From the NCBI GenBank assembly GCA_012515365.1, contig JAAYYM010000453.1, positions 1-7,281 of the forward strand: 7,281 nucleotides of DNA, in the 5' to 3' direction. Source of the DNA: Clostridia bacterium. Its GTDB lineage: Bacteria; Bacillota_A; Clostridia; Lachnospirales; Lachnospiraceae. Of the stretch, positions 1,337-5,164 are shown one piece after another. Position 1 is the stretch's first letter. Each line of letters begins with the position of its first letter. The position numbers and the translations under genes were made by a program. The notes beneath the pieces were generated by a model. It saw only the letters and a program-made list of their open reading frames with translations, was not told where the DNA came from and did no database searches.

Positions 1337-1506
1337 GGTAAGAATGGAATTAATTCTTCTGGAACAATAATTGTTTTTTCCTCTGATTTCCTTTCAATAC
1401 GTGAATAGTCACTTAATATGATTTGGGCCAGGTCATTCATGTATTTAAAAGAAACAGGCTGGGTATTGTCGTACTCCAGCCTGTTCACTGCTTCAAAGAA
1501 ATCCAT
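1333..1506 (-). CDS. 57-aa coupled small protein between PRTRC C and F
   Basis: The frame starts at ATG 1504-1506 and ends at TGA 1333-1335, giving 57 aa: MDFFEAVNRLEYDNTQ... ending ELIPFLP. Its start overlaps the stop of PRTRC C by one base (TAATG) and its stop overlaps the start of the next gene (ATGA). The gene therefore fills the gap exactly and is coupled on both sides, which is strong evidence that it is translated. The protein looks soluble, with two predicted helices (residues 2-11 and 22-36) and a short hydrophobic tail. I recognise no family. A 10-bp inverted repeat lies inside it (1453-1485). It may be a small accessory subunit of the cassette, but that is inference from position only. 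Confidence 0.8.
   Translation of the reverse strand: MDFFEAVNRLEYDNTQPVSFKYMNDLAQIILSDYSRIERKSEEKTIIVPEELIPFLP
1453..1485. repeat. Perfect 10-bp inverted repeat inside the 57-aa gene
   Basis: AACAGGCTGG (1453-1462) and CCAGCCTGTT (1476-1485) are exact reverse complements separated by 13 bases. The spacer adds a partial inner pairing (GTA with TAC). As RNA it would form a stable GC-rich hairpin between two coupled genes. As DNA it is a dyad of the kind bound by repressors or ParB-like proteins. It has no U-tract, so it is not an intrinsic terminator. Confidence 0.75.
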
Positions 1507-1727
1507 TACCCCTTTGTTCCGGCCGACCCGCTAAACTCATATGTAACCTTGTCAACTCCAATCATTGGCCCGGAGATTGAAGCATTAATAAGATGAGGAT
1601 AGTGTGTAGAATAAGACTCGAGGACCTGTTTTGGTGTCCAAGCTATGTTCGGATCTGAGAGAGTCATGCCTGTTTTCTTGTCGACAAACTCTCTTTTAAG
1701 CTCTTTTGTATGCATTTCACCACTCAT
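1506..1727 (-). CDS. PRTRC system protein C
   Basis: This 73-aa protein matches PRTRC protein C well along its length: REFV (12-15), LSDPNIAWTPKQVLESYSTHYP (23-44, family pattern L-DP-P-SPEEVRDFYA-YP), LINASISGP (46-54, family LTNA-V-GP), and the typical ending Y-F...GTKG (63-73). The molecular role is unknown; the family is a constant small member of the PRTRC cassette. The start overlaps the end of PRTRC E by 11 nt. A second in-frame ATG (Met5, 1713-1715) lies just after the E stop codon, and starting there would give 69 aa; both starts keep the whole conserved domain. The stop overlaps the start of the 57-aa gene. Confidence 0.92.
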   Translation of the reverse strand: MSGEMHTKELKREFVDKKTGMTLSDPNIAWTPKQVLESYSTHYPHLINASISGPMIGVDKVTYEFSGSAGTKG

Positions 1728-2334
1728 CGCTAGCTTCGTTTATTGGTTGATCATTGTTTGCAGCTGGAGTTTCCGGCATTTGCATTGTCTGTTGAGCTGC
1801 TGCGACAGGTGGAGCTTTTGGAGCTGGAGGCTTTGGCGTTGGAGCAGGACTTTGTGCTGACTTATTCTGCGGCTGAATTTCCGCCTGGGTTGTTACCGGT
1901 ATTTCTCCGGTTTCCTGATCAACATCATCAAAGACATTATCTGCTTCTTCATCTGTTGCATCAGAAAAAGGTAATCCTTCTGTTCCAGATGGCTCTTCTT
2001 TTGTGTCAGAAGCTTTTTCATCCTTTTTGCCTTTCCCTTTCTTCGTAGATGGAATGGTTGTTTTTGATGATGCTTCTACTTTTGATTTTTCAACTGCATC
2101 AAGATTAGATTTCAGTCCATTAAGAACTTCAACGCTTTTTGCAAGAGAATTCATAAATCCGGCCTCGAGCTGATCAGGAGTGCCAGACATACATAGAGGA
2201 ACAAACCCGGTAAGCGGTTCGTCATTTTTGTCTTTCGGGAGAGAGACCACTATTAGTCTCTCTCCGTCTGCTGTGATGGATATGACAACAGTCTTGTCGC
2301 CAATTATCCCTTTTAATTCTTCAAAGAATTTCAT
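1717..2334 (-). CDS. PRTRC system protein E
   Basis: The 205-aa protein has the conserved PRTRC E core at its N-terminus (residues 1 to about 75): MKFFEEL, a beta-rich stretch DKTVVISITADGERLIVVSLPK, then PLCMSGTPDQLEAGF (46-60), matching the family's L-GT-EELD block. From about residue 80 it is low-complexity and probably disordered: lysine-rich (KKGKGKKDEK near 97-106), then acidic, then proline/alanine-rich (APTPKPPAPKAPP near 164-176). That tail is typical of the family and may be a flexible tether. No function is established. It starts seven bases after the stop of the 321-aa gene without a Shine-Dalgarno, and overlaps PRTRC C. It contains no catalytic motif that I can see. Confidence 0.88.
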   Translation of the reverse strand: MKFFEELKGIIGDKTVVISITADGERLIVVSLPKDKNDEPLTGFVPLCMSGTPDQLEAGFMNSLAKSVEVLNGLKSNLDAVEKSKVEASSKTTIPSTKKGKGKKDEKASDTKEEPSGTEGLPFSDATDEEADNVFDDVDQETGEIPVTTQAEIQPQNKSAQSPAPTPKPPAPKAPPVAAAQQTMQMPETPAANNDQPINEASDEW

Positions 2335-2341
2335 TTTCGTT

Positions 2342-3307
2342 TTATTCGACTATTATTGCATCAGGAACATTCATCTCGAAACGATCCGTAAGGTAATCAG
2401 CCCAAAGATTGCTGTTATTTGCGATTTCTCCAATATCAACAATCCCCGGCTTCATAATGGATGTTCCCCAGCTATAAATATCCCACACGTTTGCAAGCCT
2501 TTCTTCTGCTCTGCGAGCCTGAATCATTTCCTTGGTGAAATTACTGAGCTCATGAGTGTCAAACGGAGTGACGCCTCCCTTGAAATAAGCCTGCTTGATT
2601 GCCCGGATATAAAGATCACCAATGATTTCTTCAATTACTGATTCATGTTGTGGGAGCTGAAGAGATTTCATTGTATCCATTATTTCATTCTGAACATTCC
2701 AGATCTGGTTCAGACCTTTTATCCATTTCCCAAGTTTGTGCATCAGGAGTTCCCATGGTGTTTCTCCACTTCTTCCATTATCATAGGAATAAGTACGAAG
2801 TATCGTTCCACCGAGAACATTGAAATTTGAACATTCATGAACGTTCATTCCAAATGCGATAGAGATACCTTCTTTGTTTATGGTAAGACCTATTGCGGCG
2901 TTACGCATATCAATACCTGTTCCCGCAAATACTCCGGGGATCTGAATAAGGTTAATAACCTTGTCATGTCTCCATCTATCAATAGGTGCTCTTTTTGAAT
3001 CAAATCCATCGGCTTTCTCAATGTCTGTGAGATATGCTTTCGAACTGTTCTGTTGAACATGAAACTCTCCTTCAGTGAAGTTGATATTTTCATCTCTGAG
3101 CATCCCTGTGATGATCGTATACATTGTCCAGAACTGAGTTGGAACTGTTCTTATTCCTACAAGTCCTGGGTCTCTCCTTATGCTGCTTGCAAGAGCAGGA
3201 AATGGGATACTCTGAACCTTATTTTCCTTCTGGAATTCGTAAATCATTGGTTCGGGTCTCTGTGCCGGAGTATTTGATCCGGGCTGCTTGGCTGTTACCT
3301 CTGTCAT
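2342..3307 (-). CDS. DUF932-like mobile-element protein (321 aa)
   Basis: The protein is soluble, 321 aa, with a disordered N-terminus (residues 1-20) and a mixed alpha/beta body. The stretch INLIQIPG (118-125), then MRNAAIGLTINKEGISIAFGMNVHECSNFNVL (134-165), follows the logic of the DUF932 / phage-plasmid-like family (a lysine-free strand, a G-I strand, then V-C-N). The Cys-Ser-Asn-Phe at 159-162 would correspond to that family's conserved VC-N motif. The C-terminal half is helical with an ERLANVWDIYSWGTSI block (269-284). DUF932 proteins are frequent on plasmids and phages; their role is unclear. The ATG overlaps the TGA of the 99-aa gene (ATGA), and PRTRC E follows after seven bases, so it belongs to the cassette transcript. 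The family call is by eye and weak. Confidence 0.55.
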   Translation of the reverse strand: MTEVTAKQPGSNTPAQRPEPMIYEFQKENKVQSIPFPALASSIRRDPGLVGIRTVPTQFWTMYTIITGMLRDENINFTEGEFHVQQNSSKAYLTDIEKADGFDSKRAPIDRWRHDKVINLIQIPGVFAGTGIDMRNAAIGLTINKEGISIAFGMNVHECSNFNVLGGTILRTYSYDNGRSGETPWELLMHKLGKWIKGLNQIWNVQNEIMDTMKSLQLPQHESVIEEIIGDLYIRAIKQAYFKGGVTPFDTHELSNFTKEMIQARRAEERLANVWDIYSWGTSIMKPGIVDIGEIANNSNLWADYLTDRFEMNVPDAIIVE

Positions 3308-3608: not shown

Positions 3609-3648
3609 TCTGTTATTAAATTTGAATGAAAAATAAATTCTTTTATCA
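3609..3648 (-). promoter_or_regulatory. Candidate promoter region of the PRTRC operon (repeat copy 1)
   Basis: This short AT-rich gap holds AAAGAATTTATTTT followed by ATTCAAATTTAATAAC on the minus strand. It closely parallels the region upstream of the exported-protein gene (5200-5234), which reads AAAGAATTTATTTT then ATTCGAATTTTATA just before a TATATTTG box. Here the TATATTTG itself is missing. The shared sequence ahead of two transcription units suggests a promoter or operator element. Confidence 0.35.
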
Positions 3649-3687
3649 AAAAAAACGGAGGGATAAGCACCTTGTACCTTCCCTCCG
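3648..3687 (-). terminator. Pseudoknotted terminator at the 3' end of the tmRNA coding piece
   Basis: CGGAGGG (3681-3687) pairs perfectly with CCCTCCG (3656-3662), followed by eight U residues (3648-3655), giving an intrinsic terminator on the minus strand. Its loop contains the 3' strand of another helix (GTGCTTAT, 3663-3670), which pairs with ATAAGCAC at 3699-3706. The terminator stem is therefore also the second stem of an H-type pseudoknot. Confidence 0.8.
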
Positions 3688-3822
3688 TCGGTTGCCGAGT
3701 GCTTATGCAGCCAGCTTAACCTGTGCTCTTTCGAGCAGATTAATTGATTTGCCGTTTAATTGGCATGCTTGTCATCTTCAACGATCTATACTTTCCTATG
3801 CCGTCTAAACCAAGTCAGCCCC
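3656..3822 (-). ncRNA. ssrA: tmRNA coding piece (5' half of the mature RNA)
   Basis: The predicted 5' end at 3822 is where RNase P would cut to free GGGGCUGA. The following CUUGGUUUAGACGG matches the tmRNA D-loop pattern UGG-UU-GAC. After the 5' strand of P2 comes GCAUGCC, which resembles the conserved end of P2 in other tmRNAs. The space between P2 and the tag is only about 15 nt, so a full PK1 is absent; at most a UGCC/GGCA hairpin can form. The tag frame follows, then an H-type pseudoknot: stem 1 ATAAGCAC (3699-3706) with GTGCTTAT (3663-3670), stem 2 CGGAGGG (3681-3687) with CCCTCCG (3656-3662). A small hairpin TCGG-CAA-CCGA (3688-3698) sits in the first loop. The piece is about 167 nt, far shorter than the 5' part of a one-piece tmRNA. 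Confidence 0.85.
3703..3753 (-). other. tmRNA tag reading frame, GKSINLLERAQVKLAA-stop
   Basis: Reading from GGC (3751-3753) to TAA (3703-3705) gives 16 codons ending Leu-Ala-Ala. This is the C-terminal signal for ClpXP-type proteases found in tmRNA tags such as ANDENYALAA of E. coli and the GKTNSF...ALAA tag of Bacillus. The resume codon GGC (Gly) is preceded by UAAAC. This keeps U at -5 and A at -4, which in E. coli precede the GCA resume codon (UAGUC). The neighbouring frame starting GCA has no timely stop and does not end in AA, so the Gly frame is preferred. The stop codon lies inside the first helix after the tag, as in the standard P5 arrangement. Confidence 0.8.
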
Positions 3823-4052
3823 ATGTACGCCCCATTTTTGTCATTCTCACTGAGAGGGACGTTTCTCGACCTCAGATCATCCAGTCGCTATCTGGCATCT
3901 TCTTAGCTCGCCGTACTATCGCGACGGATTAGCGAACACTGGCAAGTGATGAGATAGAAGCAATCAATTAGGCACACATAGCTATTCAGCAATACGCAAT
4001 TCTTATGTGCTTTATTCGACTGCGTATCTAAAAGTCTATTGATTGCTTCCCG
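3823..4052 (-). other. Intervening segment of the permuted tmRNA, highly structured
   Basis: These 230 bases separate the discriminator A (4053) from the first G of the coding piece (3822). They should be removed during maturation by RNase P and 3' trimming. Next to the acceptor end, a perfect 12-bp inverted repeat GAAGCAATCAAT / ATTGATTGCTTC (3957-3968 and 4038-4049) encloses two crossing helices (3975-3980 with 4004-4009, and 3992-3998 with 4021-4027), an H-type pseudoknot. The rest holds smaller hairpins: CCAG/CTGG (3881-3895), CCGT/ACGG (3911-3927) and CTGAG/CTCAG (3850-3875). No protein frame is credible here. CCA is not encoded after the discriminator (CGG follows). Confidence 0.7.
3957..4049. 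repeat. 12-bp perfect inverted repeat enclosing a pseudoknot
   Basis: GAAGCAATCAAT (3957-3968) and ATTGATTGCTTC (4038-4049) are exact reverse complements 69 bases apart. Between them, on the minus strand, ATACGCA pairs with TGCGTAT (4021-4027 and 3992-3998) and CACATA pairs with TATGTG (4004-4009 and 3975-3980) in crossed order. This stem directly abuts the acceptor end of the tmRNA and may help define its 3' end. Confidence 0.8.
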
Positions 4053-4126
4053 TGGAGCTGCCGGGAGTCGAACCCGGGTCCGGTCATATTATTCTTTAGA
4101 CCTCCAATGACAATATCTTAAAGAAC
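4053..4126 (-). ncRNA. ssrA: tmRNA acceptor piece (3' half of the mature RNA)
   Basis: The minus strand reads GGAC, then CCGGG-TTCGACT-CCCGG (T stem 4073-4077 and 4061-4065, loop 4066-4072), then CAGCTCC and discriminator A at 4053. GGAC before the T arm and the GUUC-A-C loop core are hallmarks of tmRNA 3' ends. The upstream bases 4082-4113 form the 3' strand of P2 with the coding piece. The 5' end is inferred as about seven bases after the TATATTTG promoter box, giving a piece of roughly 74 nt, in the range of known two-piece acceptor RNAs. The G-U wobble at the third acceptor pair (GGGGC with GCUCC), a determinant for alanyl-tRNA synthetase, is present. Confidence 0.88.
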
Positions 4127-4132
4127 TTTGTT

Positions 4133-4140
4133 CAAATATA
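4133..4140 (-). promoter_or_regulatory. Bacteroidota-type -7 promoter box of the tmRNA gene
   Basis: TATATTTG on the minus strand matches the Bacteroidota -7 consensus TAnnTTTG. It lies about 20 nt before the first paired base of the acceptor piece, which places the transcript start near 4126. A convincing -33 box was not found. The same eight bases occur before the exported-protein gene at 5193-5200. Confidence 0.6.
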
Positions 4141-4148
4141 ATAATTTA

Positions 4149-4718
4149 TCAAAGCATAGCAGGCATAATAACTGCATAAGAATCTTTATAATCCGGATCA
4201 TCAGTTGATGGTATGACAAGGCATCCTTTGTCTGCTGATCTGAAATAAAATATCAGGAAAAGCTTGTTACGCGGATCGGGTGACATTGCTTTGTGAAGAT
4301 CATCAATAAGATTCGGATTAAACTTAATTTTATCGATAGGCTTTGATTCCGCTTTCTTTGGAATAACTTTTTTGTAATCCGGCATTGCAGGAATATCCTT
4401 AGGAAGCTTATATCCTATTGTCGGAAGGATATGAGAAAGCATGATACTCGGAAGCAATGTAATCATTGTTTTATCCTCGGATAACCGTACTTCCTCAACC
4501 TCACGCTTACGAATATCAATAATCATTCTTCTTGTGAGACGTATTCCTTCTTCTGGAACAGAATTAGCAAACTCTTCTCCAAATAGTGTTTTCGTTTTGT
4601 GAACAACAAGAATGTGTCCATTAGTTGCAACTGTGTCTTCTTTTCCAACCCATACTGATTCCAGAGCAGGTCTTATGTCATCATCTGAAATAGCATAGTG
4701 TAATGCAGGTATTTTCAT
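4149..4718 (-). CDS. Shortened DNA polymerase III beta-clamp (DnaN-like) protein, 189 aa
   Basis: The protein follows the second half of bacterial DnaN: DIRPALESVWVGKEDTVATNGHILVV (14-39, like LNG-LFE-EG-LRTVATDGHRLAV), IRLTRRMIIDI (59-69, like VIVPRKGVIEL), MPDYKKVIPK (112-121, like FPDYRRVLPK), FNPNLIDDLHKAM (133-145, like FNVSYVLDVLNAL) and the C-terminal YAVIMPAML (181-189, like YVVMPMRL). It is about half the usual 366 aa: domain I and the first half of domain III are missing. A sliding clamp tethers polymerase to DNA; whether this one forms a ring is unknown. I chose ATG 4716-4718, since the longer frame to 4823 runs back through a terminator into the preceding gene. No Shine-Dalgarno. 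The stop lies just before the tmRNA promoter. Confidence 0.75.
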   Translation of the reverse strand: MKIPALHYAISDDDIRPALESVWVGKEDTVATNGHILVVHKTKTLFGEEFANSVPEEGIRLTRRMIIDIRKREVEEVRLSEDKTMITLLPSIMLSHILPTIGYKLPKDIPAMPDYKKVIPKKAESKPIDKIKFNPNLIDDLHKAMSPDPRNKLFLIFYFRSADKGCLVIPSTDDPDYKDSYAVIMPAML

Positions 4719-4739
4719 GATTATGCTTTGTATTGGTAC

Positions 4740-4767
4740 AAAAAAAAGAGTGGCATTTCTGCCACTC
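4740..4767 (-). terminator. Intrinsic terminator of the exported-protein gene
   Basis: On the minus strand GAGTGGCA-GAAA-TGCCACTC (4748-4767) forms a perfect 8-bp stem with a GAAA tetraloop, followed by eight T (4740-4747). It lies 23 bases after the stop of the exported-protein gene and just before the start of the clamp-like gene. Confidence 0.93.
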
Positions 4768-4789
4768 TCCAGGTTATGAGTTATTTTAT

Positions 4790-5164
4790 TTATTCCCTTC
4801 GAAGGAACTCTGGTCTTAACCATTCGATATATGGTATTCCCGTTGACAAATCCTGGCTTAATGATCTATTATAAAAATAACCGTATGTAAAACTGACTCC
4901 AGATCGTATCGTGGGAACTGCCACGCCCTCCTGACTAACGGATCTGTACAGGATACCCTGATCTGAATTGAATGACGCGATGAGGCCGGATACAACATAA
5001 TTGTCGGCTGAAGGCAGTATTACTGCGGATGCGTCGAATTCCTGGTTTGTAATTATAGCATATTCCATGCCTGTGTCAAGTTCTGCCGGGGGTGCATTGG
5101 CGACAGCGGGGCCGGCCATTGCAATTACGACAAGAACAAGGAAAAATTTGAGAAATGTTTTCAT
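4790..5164 (-). CDS. Small exported protein of unknown function (124 aa)
   Basis: The N-terminus is a classic signal peptide: basic MKTFLKF, a hydrophobic core LVLVVIAMAG and a signal peptidase I site AVA/NA after residue 22. No lipobox cysteine is present; indeed the protein has no cysteine. The mature part of about 100 aa is rich in Ser, Tyr and small residues, with alternating hydrophobic stretches suggesting beta-structure (AVILPSADNYVVSGLIASF, 47-65; RSGVSFTYGYFYNRS, 87-101). I recognise no family. It is a single-gene unit with a TATATTTG promoter box (5193-5200), the strong Shine-Dalgarno AAGGAGG (5169-5175) and its own terminator, which points to substantial independent expression. Location would be periplasm or outside the cell. 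Confidence 0.82.
   Translation of the reverse strand: MKTFLKFFLVLVVIAMAGPAVANAPPAELDTGMEYAIITNQEFDASAVILPSADNYVVSGLIASFNSDQGILYRSVSQEGVAVPTIRSGVSFTYGYFYNRSLSQDLSTGIPYIEWLRPEFLRRE

Follow-up and report, generated by a model that had tools for sequence, protein, structure and literature searches.

A permuted tmRNA gene with a conserved spacer motif on a likely crAss-related phage of Bacteroidota

The tmRNA Locus

The window, as the whole 7,281-nucleotide stretch of DNA analyzed here is called, carries a permuted tmRNA gene on its minus strand at positions 3612-4144, in agreement with the original prediction, which was made from the letters of the sequence. ARAGORN reports a permuted tmRNA at window 3612-4144 (-) with the tag GKSINLLERAQVKLAA. 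A covariance-model search with cmscan (E<=1), a check proposed together with that prediction, matches RF04321 (tmRNA_permuted) at 4101-3703 with 62.2 bits (E 1.5e-10) against a gathering score of 47 and leaves alpha_tmRNA below its own threshold.

On the minus strand, the acceptor half (4081-4053) comes first and the coding half (3822-3648), comprising the 5' acceptor strand, D loop, tag, and terminator, comes second (Table 1). The acceptor stem has 7 bp and includes both the G3-U70 pair and A73. The halves had been described as complementary in the acceptor stem and at three places in P2, and all of these pairings arise when the two pieces are cofolded as separate strands without guidance, in a fold that comprises an acceptor stem of 7 bp, the T arm, and three helices in P2. 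The same treatment of the two pieces of a related gene, L003, also yields an acceptor stem, a T arm, and pairing in P2. In the window's own copy, as scored in the P2 pairing test described below, the helix beside the D loop is short (4 bp ungapped) and the second P2 helix has 8 bp. The tag frame encodes 16 residues with a hydrophobic AA end and is followed by a stop codon.

The outer limits first proposed, 3648 to 4126, are close, with a promoter-like element, TATATTTG, just beyond them. The Bacteroidota -7 box has the consensus TAnnTTTG, and the resemblance of TATATTTG to it weakly suggests a promoter role. This consensus occurs in 9 of 32 upstream stretches (shuffle mean 3.5, maximum 9), and three of those nine occurrences lie inside P2. 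At the other end of the gene, modeling allows the loop of the terminal hairpin to pair with TAAGCAC after the tag, a possible pseudoknot; the nested minimum free energy (MFE) structure favors another pairing of this loop. A pseudoknot after the tag was rejected as a general feature of these genes.

The gene at 4149..4823 adjoins the tmRNA directly on its upstream side. Its PHROG matches are phrog_3007 (1.1e-12) and phrog_947 (4.5e-6), and a dnaN model scores 14.5 bits, far below cut-off. A homologue of the protein upstream of the tmRNA that is 78% identical (P0089) bears the source label Candidatus Paceibacterota, possibly through misbinning of a phage contig.

Table 1. Features of the permuted tmRNA gene and its neighbors in the window
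Feature	Position	Strand	Sequence or remark	Basis
Candidate promoter	4133..4140	(-)	TATATTTG; resembles Bacteroidota -7 box	read in sequence
Acceptor piece, 5' part	4082..4126	(-)		cofold MFE, cognate-pairing test, coordinates
P2 helices, 3' strands	4106-4113; 4097-4102; 4082-4089	(-)	TTGTCATT; GGTCTA; ATATGACC	
GGAC, T arm, 3' acceptor strand, discriminator A	4053..4081	(-)	GGAC CCGGG TTCGACT CCCGG CAGCTCC A; CCA unencoded, CGG next	
Intervening segment	3823..4052	(-)	230 nt, predicted to be removed	
Long hairpin in intervening segment	3958..4048	(-)	AAGCAATCAAT / ATTGATTGCTT	
Hairpin with GCC loop	3937..3948	(-)	CACT-TGCC-AGTG	
Motif A	3911..3933	(-)	G-CTAATCCGTCGCGATAGTACGG	
Predicted RNase P site	before 3822	(-)		
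Coding piece start: 5' acceptor strand and D loop	3803..3822	(-)	GGGGCTG; ACTTGGTTTAGAC	
P2 helices, 5' strands	3769..3802	(-)	GGCAT..., TAGATC, GATGACAA (3769-3776)	pairing test, cofold
Tag reading frame and stop	3703..3753	(-)	GKSINLLERAQVKLAA	ARAGORN
Terminal hairpin	3656..3705	(-)	CGGAGGGA/TCCCTCCG	
Intrinsic terminator	3648..3655	(-)	run of eight U	sequence
Neighbor gene	4149..4823	(-)	top PHROG label RusA-like resolvase, second DNA polymerase processivity factor	
Conserved neighbor gene	2342..3307	(-)	321 aa; query for related phages	
PRTRC_E, PRTRC_C	1506..2334	(-)	PRTRC_E 1717-2334; PRTRC_C 1506-1727	

Homologues and Compensatory Pairing

The 321-aa neighbor protein has 86 homologues; 40 of them, aligned with the window protein (41 sequences in all), lead to five viral-contig loci and one genome-contig locus. 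In one of these, L003, a permuted tmRNA occupies the place that it has in the window, with a neighbor protein that is just 52% identical. Its RF04321 score of 37.5 bits (E 0.0005) is below the cut-off of 47, and ARAGORN makes no call there. The corresponding site lacks a tmRNA in L001 and in the Bacteroidales contig L006, though the neighbor gene is present in both, and the tmRNA is therefore dispensable. In L006, the place of the tmRNA is taken by a gene that reads by eye like an IS200/IS605-type TnpB (L006:8-1176).

A pattern for the T arm and acceptor strand retrieves at least 120 stretches from viral contigs, and ARAGORN called a permuted tmRNA in 18 of those 120. These called loci, minus the duplicates L072, L073, L125, and L141, were combined with the window, L003, five crAss-like phages, and Chryseobacterium phage MA9V-3 into a set of 22 genes. 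In a cmscan run on 12 further loci, RF04321 scores above cut-off in all 12.

All 22 genes show seven pairs in the acceptor stem together with G3-U70 and A73. The script demanded seven pairs, and in 14 of the genes the 3' strand was already set by the pattern, which leaves the other eight as the free test of the acceptor stem. Four of these eight have changes on both acceptor strands that keep the pairing (GGGGTTG/CAACTCC, GGGGGTG/CACCTCC, GGGGCAT/ATGCTCC, and GGGCGTG/CACGTCC). P2 was examined by pairing each gene's halves with the halves of other genes and scoring ungapped helices; a version based on free duplexes of the whole region was too noisy. In 21 of the 22 genes, the P2 helix next to the D loop scores higher with its own mate than it does on average with the halves of other genes, and the same holds for the second P2 region in 20. 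For each of the two regions, the observed mean is reached in none of 20,000 permutations, and relatedness among some of the 22 genes works against this comparison rather than for it. Compensatory change in the acceptor stem and P2 of homologues had been set beforehand as a test of the original prediction, and it is found in both. Together with the syntenic homologue L003, this compensation upholds the claim that the window gene is not a chance fragment.

No encoded CCA is present in any of the 22 genes, a count to which only eight contribute freely (the window, L003, and L142-L147) because the pattern excluded CACC; L216, L257, and L259 read ACCA. Among the 20 genes of the set called by ARAGORN, the tag ends in AA in 12, in another residue followed by A in six, and in neither form in two (L059 and L137).

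The Carrier Element

The locus had been placed on a mobile element of Bacteroidota type that bears PRTRC genes. Mobility and the Bacteroidota type hold up; the element is likely a tailed phage of Bacteroidota related to crAss-like phages rather than a plasmid, and its PRTRC genes look incidental to the tmRNA. No structural phage gene was found in the 7.3-kb window, and the phage label rests on relatives, because two records that share the 321-aa neighbor gene encode portal and major head proteins. The L003 record (93,679 bases) has a crAss-type major capsid protein (PF23898, 44.1 bits against a cut-off of 27), detected by direct scan and overlooked by a six-frame search, as well as a portal protein. 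The L001 record also encodes a major head and a portal protein, which belong to the PHROG families seen in the L003 record. The window likely derives from a phage in the 80-95 kb range. At its left end, the L003 phage record also holds a reading frame of 4,533 residues (G003:5823-19424).

PRTRC_E occurs in one and the crAss capsid in two of 36 other records (35 viral contigs and MA9V-3, with the window excluded). The PRTRC genes beside the tmRNA appear incidental because the one other record with PRTRC_E, L001, has no tmRNA at the site. PRTRC was not found in the L003 record, either in the reading frames tested or by six-frame search, and in the window itself PRTRC_B is a weak match below cut-off. 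The L001 record, of phage type, contains a ubiquitin-like PRTRC cassette at L001:11250-14810 (record G001) made up of PRTRC_E, Prok_Ub, one unassigned gene, Prok-E2_D, and ThiF.

Closer relatives were sought in several ways. The 321-aa neighbor protein has no match among annotated phages or plasmids, and a 23-base exact DNA pattern for close relatives gave no matches. By blastn, the T-arm and acceptor region was the only part matched, both in the best 20 of 127 phage records and in six of six plasmid records.

Phage and Host tmRNAs

Chromosomal tmRNA of Bacteroidota is one-piece, as had been stated: of 395 Bacteroidota genomes, 362 exceed the RF00023 cut-off and 384 have a match at E<=1e-10. 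RF04321 at E<=1e-4 matches 11 of the 395; one match is above cut-off (G240, L158), and the other 10 genes are one-piece by ARAGORN. The count of one permuted gene in 395 genomes is a lower bound, since stricter search filters lose weak matches. Genome G240 holds both kinds, a one-piece gene (160.3 bits) and a permuted gene in a prophage-like region, where its neighbors are genes for a phage-type polymerase, primase, helicase, rIIA-like protein, exonuclease, and integrase. The one-piece tmRNA of Bacteroidota is expected to have the same function as the window gene, but it has the normal half order and shorter tags (9 or 10 residues, for example ANDYSYAMAA) versus 16 residues in the window.

The original prediction knew of no other permuted tmRNA in such a setting. 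That view needs amending, as permuted genes also occur in the prophage-like region of G240, in the Crassvirales phages cr50_1, cr114_1, cr124_1, cr10_1, and cr53_1, and in MA9V-3. Five of these six phage records annotate SsrA without stating its form. Their genes are permuted like that of the window, but they have other spacers and other tags, such as GNNFVTDYTAIGA, and motif A, a conserved element of the window's spacer, is in none of them.

The members of RF04321 (alpha-, beta-, and cyanobacterial two-piece tmRNAs) have the half order, tRNA-like domain, T arm, and tag frame in common with the window gene. The window differs from them in that its host phylum uses one-piece tmRNA and in its long spacer bearing motif A. 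Against the older models for the alpha, beta, and cyanobacterial forms, the window and its relatives score below every family cut-off, as does the cyanobacterial control for its own model. Alpha_tmRNA (RF01849) gives 31.1 bits on the window against a cut-off of 50 and covers the tRNA-like part only; beta_tmRNA (RF01850, cut-off 84) and cyano_tmRNA (RF01851, cut-off 70, which the Synechococcus control also missed) score below 31.1 there or do not match. Among the older models of the clan, beta_tmRNA fits best in 10 of 12 relatives, with 27.4-46.5 bits against its cut-off of 84, and RF00023 does so in the remaining two. Cyano_tmRNA matches all 14 records with best scores of 14.7-39.2 bits per record, none above 70, a threshold below which the Synechococcus control also falls.

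The Spacer and Motif A

The spacer of a permuted tmRNA is usually viewed as a part for removal. In the window, its order is the long hairpin, the GCC-loop hairpin, and then CTAATCCGTCGCGATAGTACGG, the core of motif A. The strict form of this motif occurs in three viral-contig stretches, each within a permuted tmRNA spacer. A relaxed form, CTAAYCCGTCGN(2-5)TAGTACG, occurs in 17 viral-contig stretches, which are not all independent (L175 and L176 have the same tmRNA region, and L248, L257, and L260 have common flanking sequence), and all 17 lie in permuted tmRNA spacers in one orientation. Fifteen of the 17 passed a scripted check for a T arm and seven acceptor pairs; the other two were read by eye, L250 because the script excluded its T stem and L253 because its contig begins within the T arm. 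A score of at least 18 is found in 14 of the 15 scripted loci and at none of 1690 random places in the same loci. The remaining locus, L251, scores 16, a value reached by 3 of the 1690 random places, and has T in place of A73. Motif A was absent from all 395 Bacteroidota genomes, and in the 22-gene set it occurs in the window and L104 only. At L175:2112-2133 and L176:2616-2637, the permuted tmRNA has the T loop GGCAGAA rather than TTCGANN and was overlooked by ARAGORN.

A GCCA hairpin occurs in 12 of 35 intervening segments, compared with a mean of 1.95 and a maximum of 6 in 300 shuffles, figures that overstate the certainty since this loop was picked after seeing the data. Within the 26 nt before motif A, a short hairpin is present in 16 of 17 cases (the window and 16 relatives, L176 being omitted; shuffle mean 8.9, maximum 14 in 400 shuffles), and its loop is not always GCC. 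Taken over its full length, the spacer is no more stable than its shuffles (MFE z -0.83 for the window and -0.79 for L003). The pairing within motif A is nearly invariant, so covariation lends its fold no support, and the window copy has one mismatch by eye. An H-type pseudoknot in motif A is not claimed: the pairs are possible, but the sequence is near-invariant and the linker is one base. A group I intron or other known RNA was also sought in the spacer, and tmRNA was the only Rfam match at E<=1.

A second spacer motif, GGATTGATTAGTGATCG, has eight matches: four in permuted spacers by script, which amount to two look-alike pairs, a fifth (L265) by eye, and three elsewhere. In L054, L065, L263, L266, and L265 it apparently forms a hairpin loop on changing stems, as read by eye.

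The spacer is likely more than filler. The restriction of motif A to permuted spacers in the collections scanned suggests that the spacer has a job, and motif A beside the GCC-loop hairpin may act in precursor folding or processing. An alternative is that motif A is a DNA signal, for protein binding or recombination, and not part of an RNA. This alternative is doubtful though of some weight: the near-invariant sequence and a geometry that is tight for a pseudoknot are what a DNA element might show, whereas the confinement of all 17 cases to the spacer in a single orientation argues for an RNA.

Proposed Function and Alternatives

We estimate a probability of roughly 80% that the locus is a permuted tmRNA gene on a likely crAss-related Bacteroidota phage, expressed as a predicted single precursor from which the 230-nt spacer is excised to leave two paired pieces acting in ribosome rescue. 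For permuted tmRNA precursors, cutting by tRNA-processing enzymes into pieces that stay paired is described in PMC11915505. In the window, one transcript would lose its spacer, with the two remaining pieces held by base pairing. Host RNase P would generate the 5' end at 3822, and a host 3' nuclease would trim after A4053. Because CCA is unencoded, the host CCA-adding enzyme would complete the acceptor piece, which host alanyl-tRNA synthetase would charge with alanine through recognition of G3-U70. The complex is expected to be carried by host SmpB, since no SmpB was found in any of the 20 records searched, some of them fragments. The phage would gain extra rescue of ribosomes stalled on mRNAs broken in infection, plus a longer tag of its own. 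As first suggested, its RNA may also replace or compete with the host tmRNA.

A different role would be that of a decoy whose tRNA-like domain captures SmpB or alanyl-tRNA synthetase, so that trans-translation in the host is blocked. Such a role has been proposed for the tmRNA-like RNA of mycobacteriophage DS6A, and a phage RNA with only a tRNA-like part inhibits tmRNA (PMC11915505 and PMC4131195). A decoy would not need a tag frame, and the window gene retains one, which makes this role very unlikely. It is extremely improbable that the locus is a gene in decay, a fragment that arose by chance, or a one-piece tmRNA rearranged in assembly. The two records with the same neighbor gene and no tmRNA might be taken that way, but the syntenic permuted homologue L003, the compensation in the acceptor stem and P2, and the above-cut-off RF04321 scores in the window and the 12 further loci all speak against it. 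Another origin would be the simple acquisition, by a Bacteroidota element, of a permuted tmRNA from alphaproteobacteria, betaproteobacteria, or cyanobacteria. The weak matches of the tRNA-like part to alpha_tmRNA in the window, to beta_tmRNA in 10 of the 12 relatives, and to cyano_tmRNA in the 14 records are consistent with such an origin, but all fall under the family cut-offs of 50, 84, and 70, the last comparison being weak because the Synechococcus control is also below. Such a transfer is considered unlikely.

A broader proposal, put forward tentatively and at somewhat less than even odds, is that the two-piece tmRNAs in phages of Bacteroidota form a fourth lineage, absent from the hosts of these phages, and that the discarded spacer contains a new conserved RNA element (the GCC-loop hairpin followed by G-CUAAYCCGUCGCNNUAGUACGG) which either drives the processing of the precursor or, once released as a small RNA, has a role of its own in infection. 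The "fourth lineage" would be a reading of the comparisons, not a result.

Relation to Published Phage tmRNAs

Two-piece tmRNA in phages is in print, including phage Melnitz and other aquatic phages, and that study names three two-piece lineages (PMC9004378). It reports 53 of 133 unique phage tmRNAs as two-piece by ARAGORN, 50 of the 53 from marine or aquatic phages. These genes are phage-borne and permuted, as in the window, but are tied to Alphaproteobacteria, OM43, and Cyanobacteria, and the text available to us does not name Bacteroidota phages (PMC9004378). Permuted tmRNA sequences number 11,946 in the list given in PMC11915505. The word tmRNA is absent from the Crassvirales papers PMC7886860 and PMC10136315 and appears only in the reference list of PMC6235969. 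A search conducted mostly without subscription papers and bioRxiv found no earlier report of this phage set or spacer motif; the supplementary taxon table of PMC11915505 may include permuted entries from Bacteroidota or their phages.

The kind of gene is thus known in principle, and what appears to be new is the host setting and the conserved spacer element, motif A. If the proposed reading is true, phages of a phylum with one-piece tmRNA have a rescue RNA of different architecture and tag. The peptide alone would then separate host from phage tagging, and the question of why phages carry tmRNA would become directly testable.

Other RNAs accompany some of these genes. RAGATH-22 or RAGATH-9 RNAs score above cut-off near the permuted tmRNA in three crAss-like phages (L142:871-1037, L144:1018-1185, and L146:123-301). 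In the crAss-like phage cr114_1, a tRNA gene (63.1 bits) lies within the permuted tmRNA spacer itself (L144:1542-1613).
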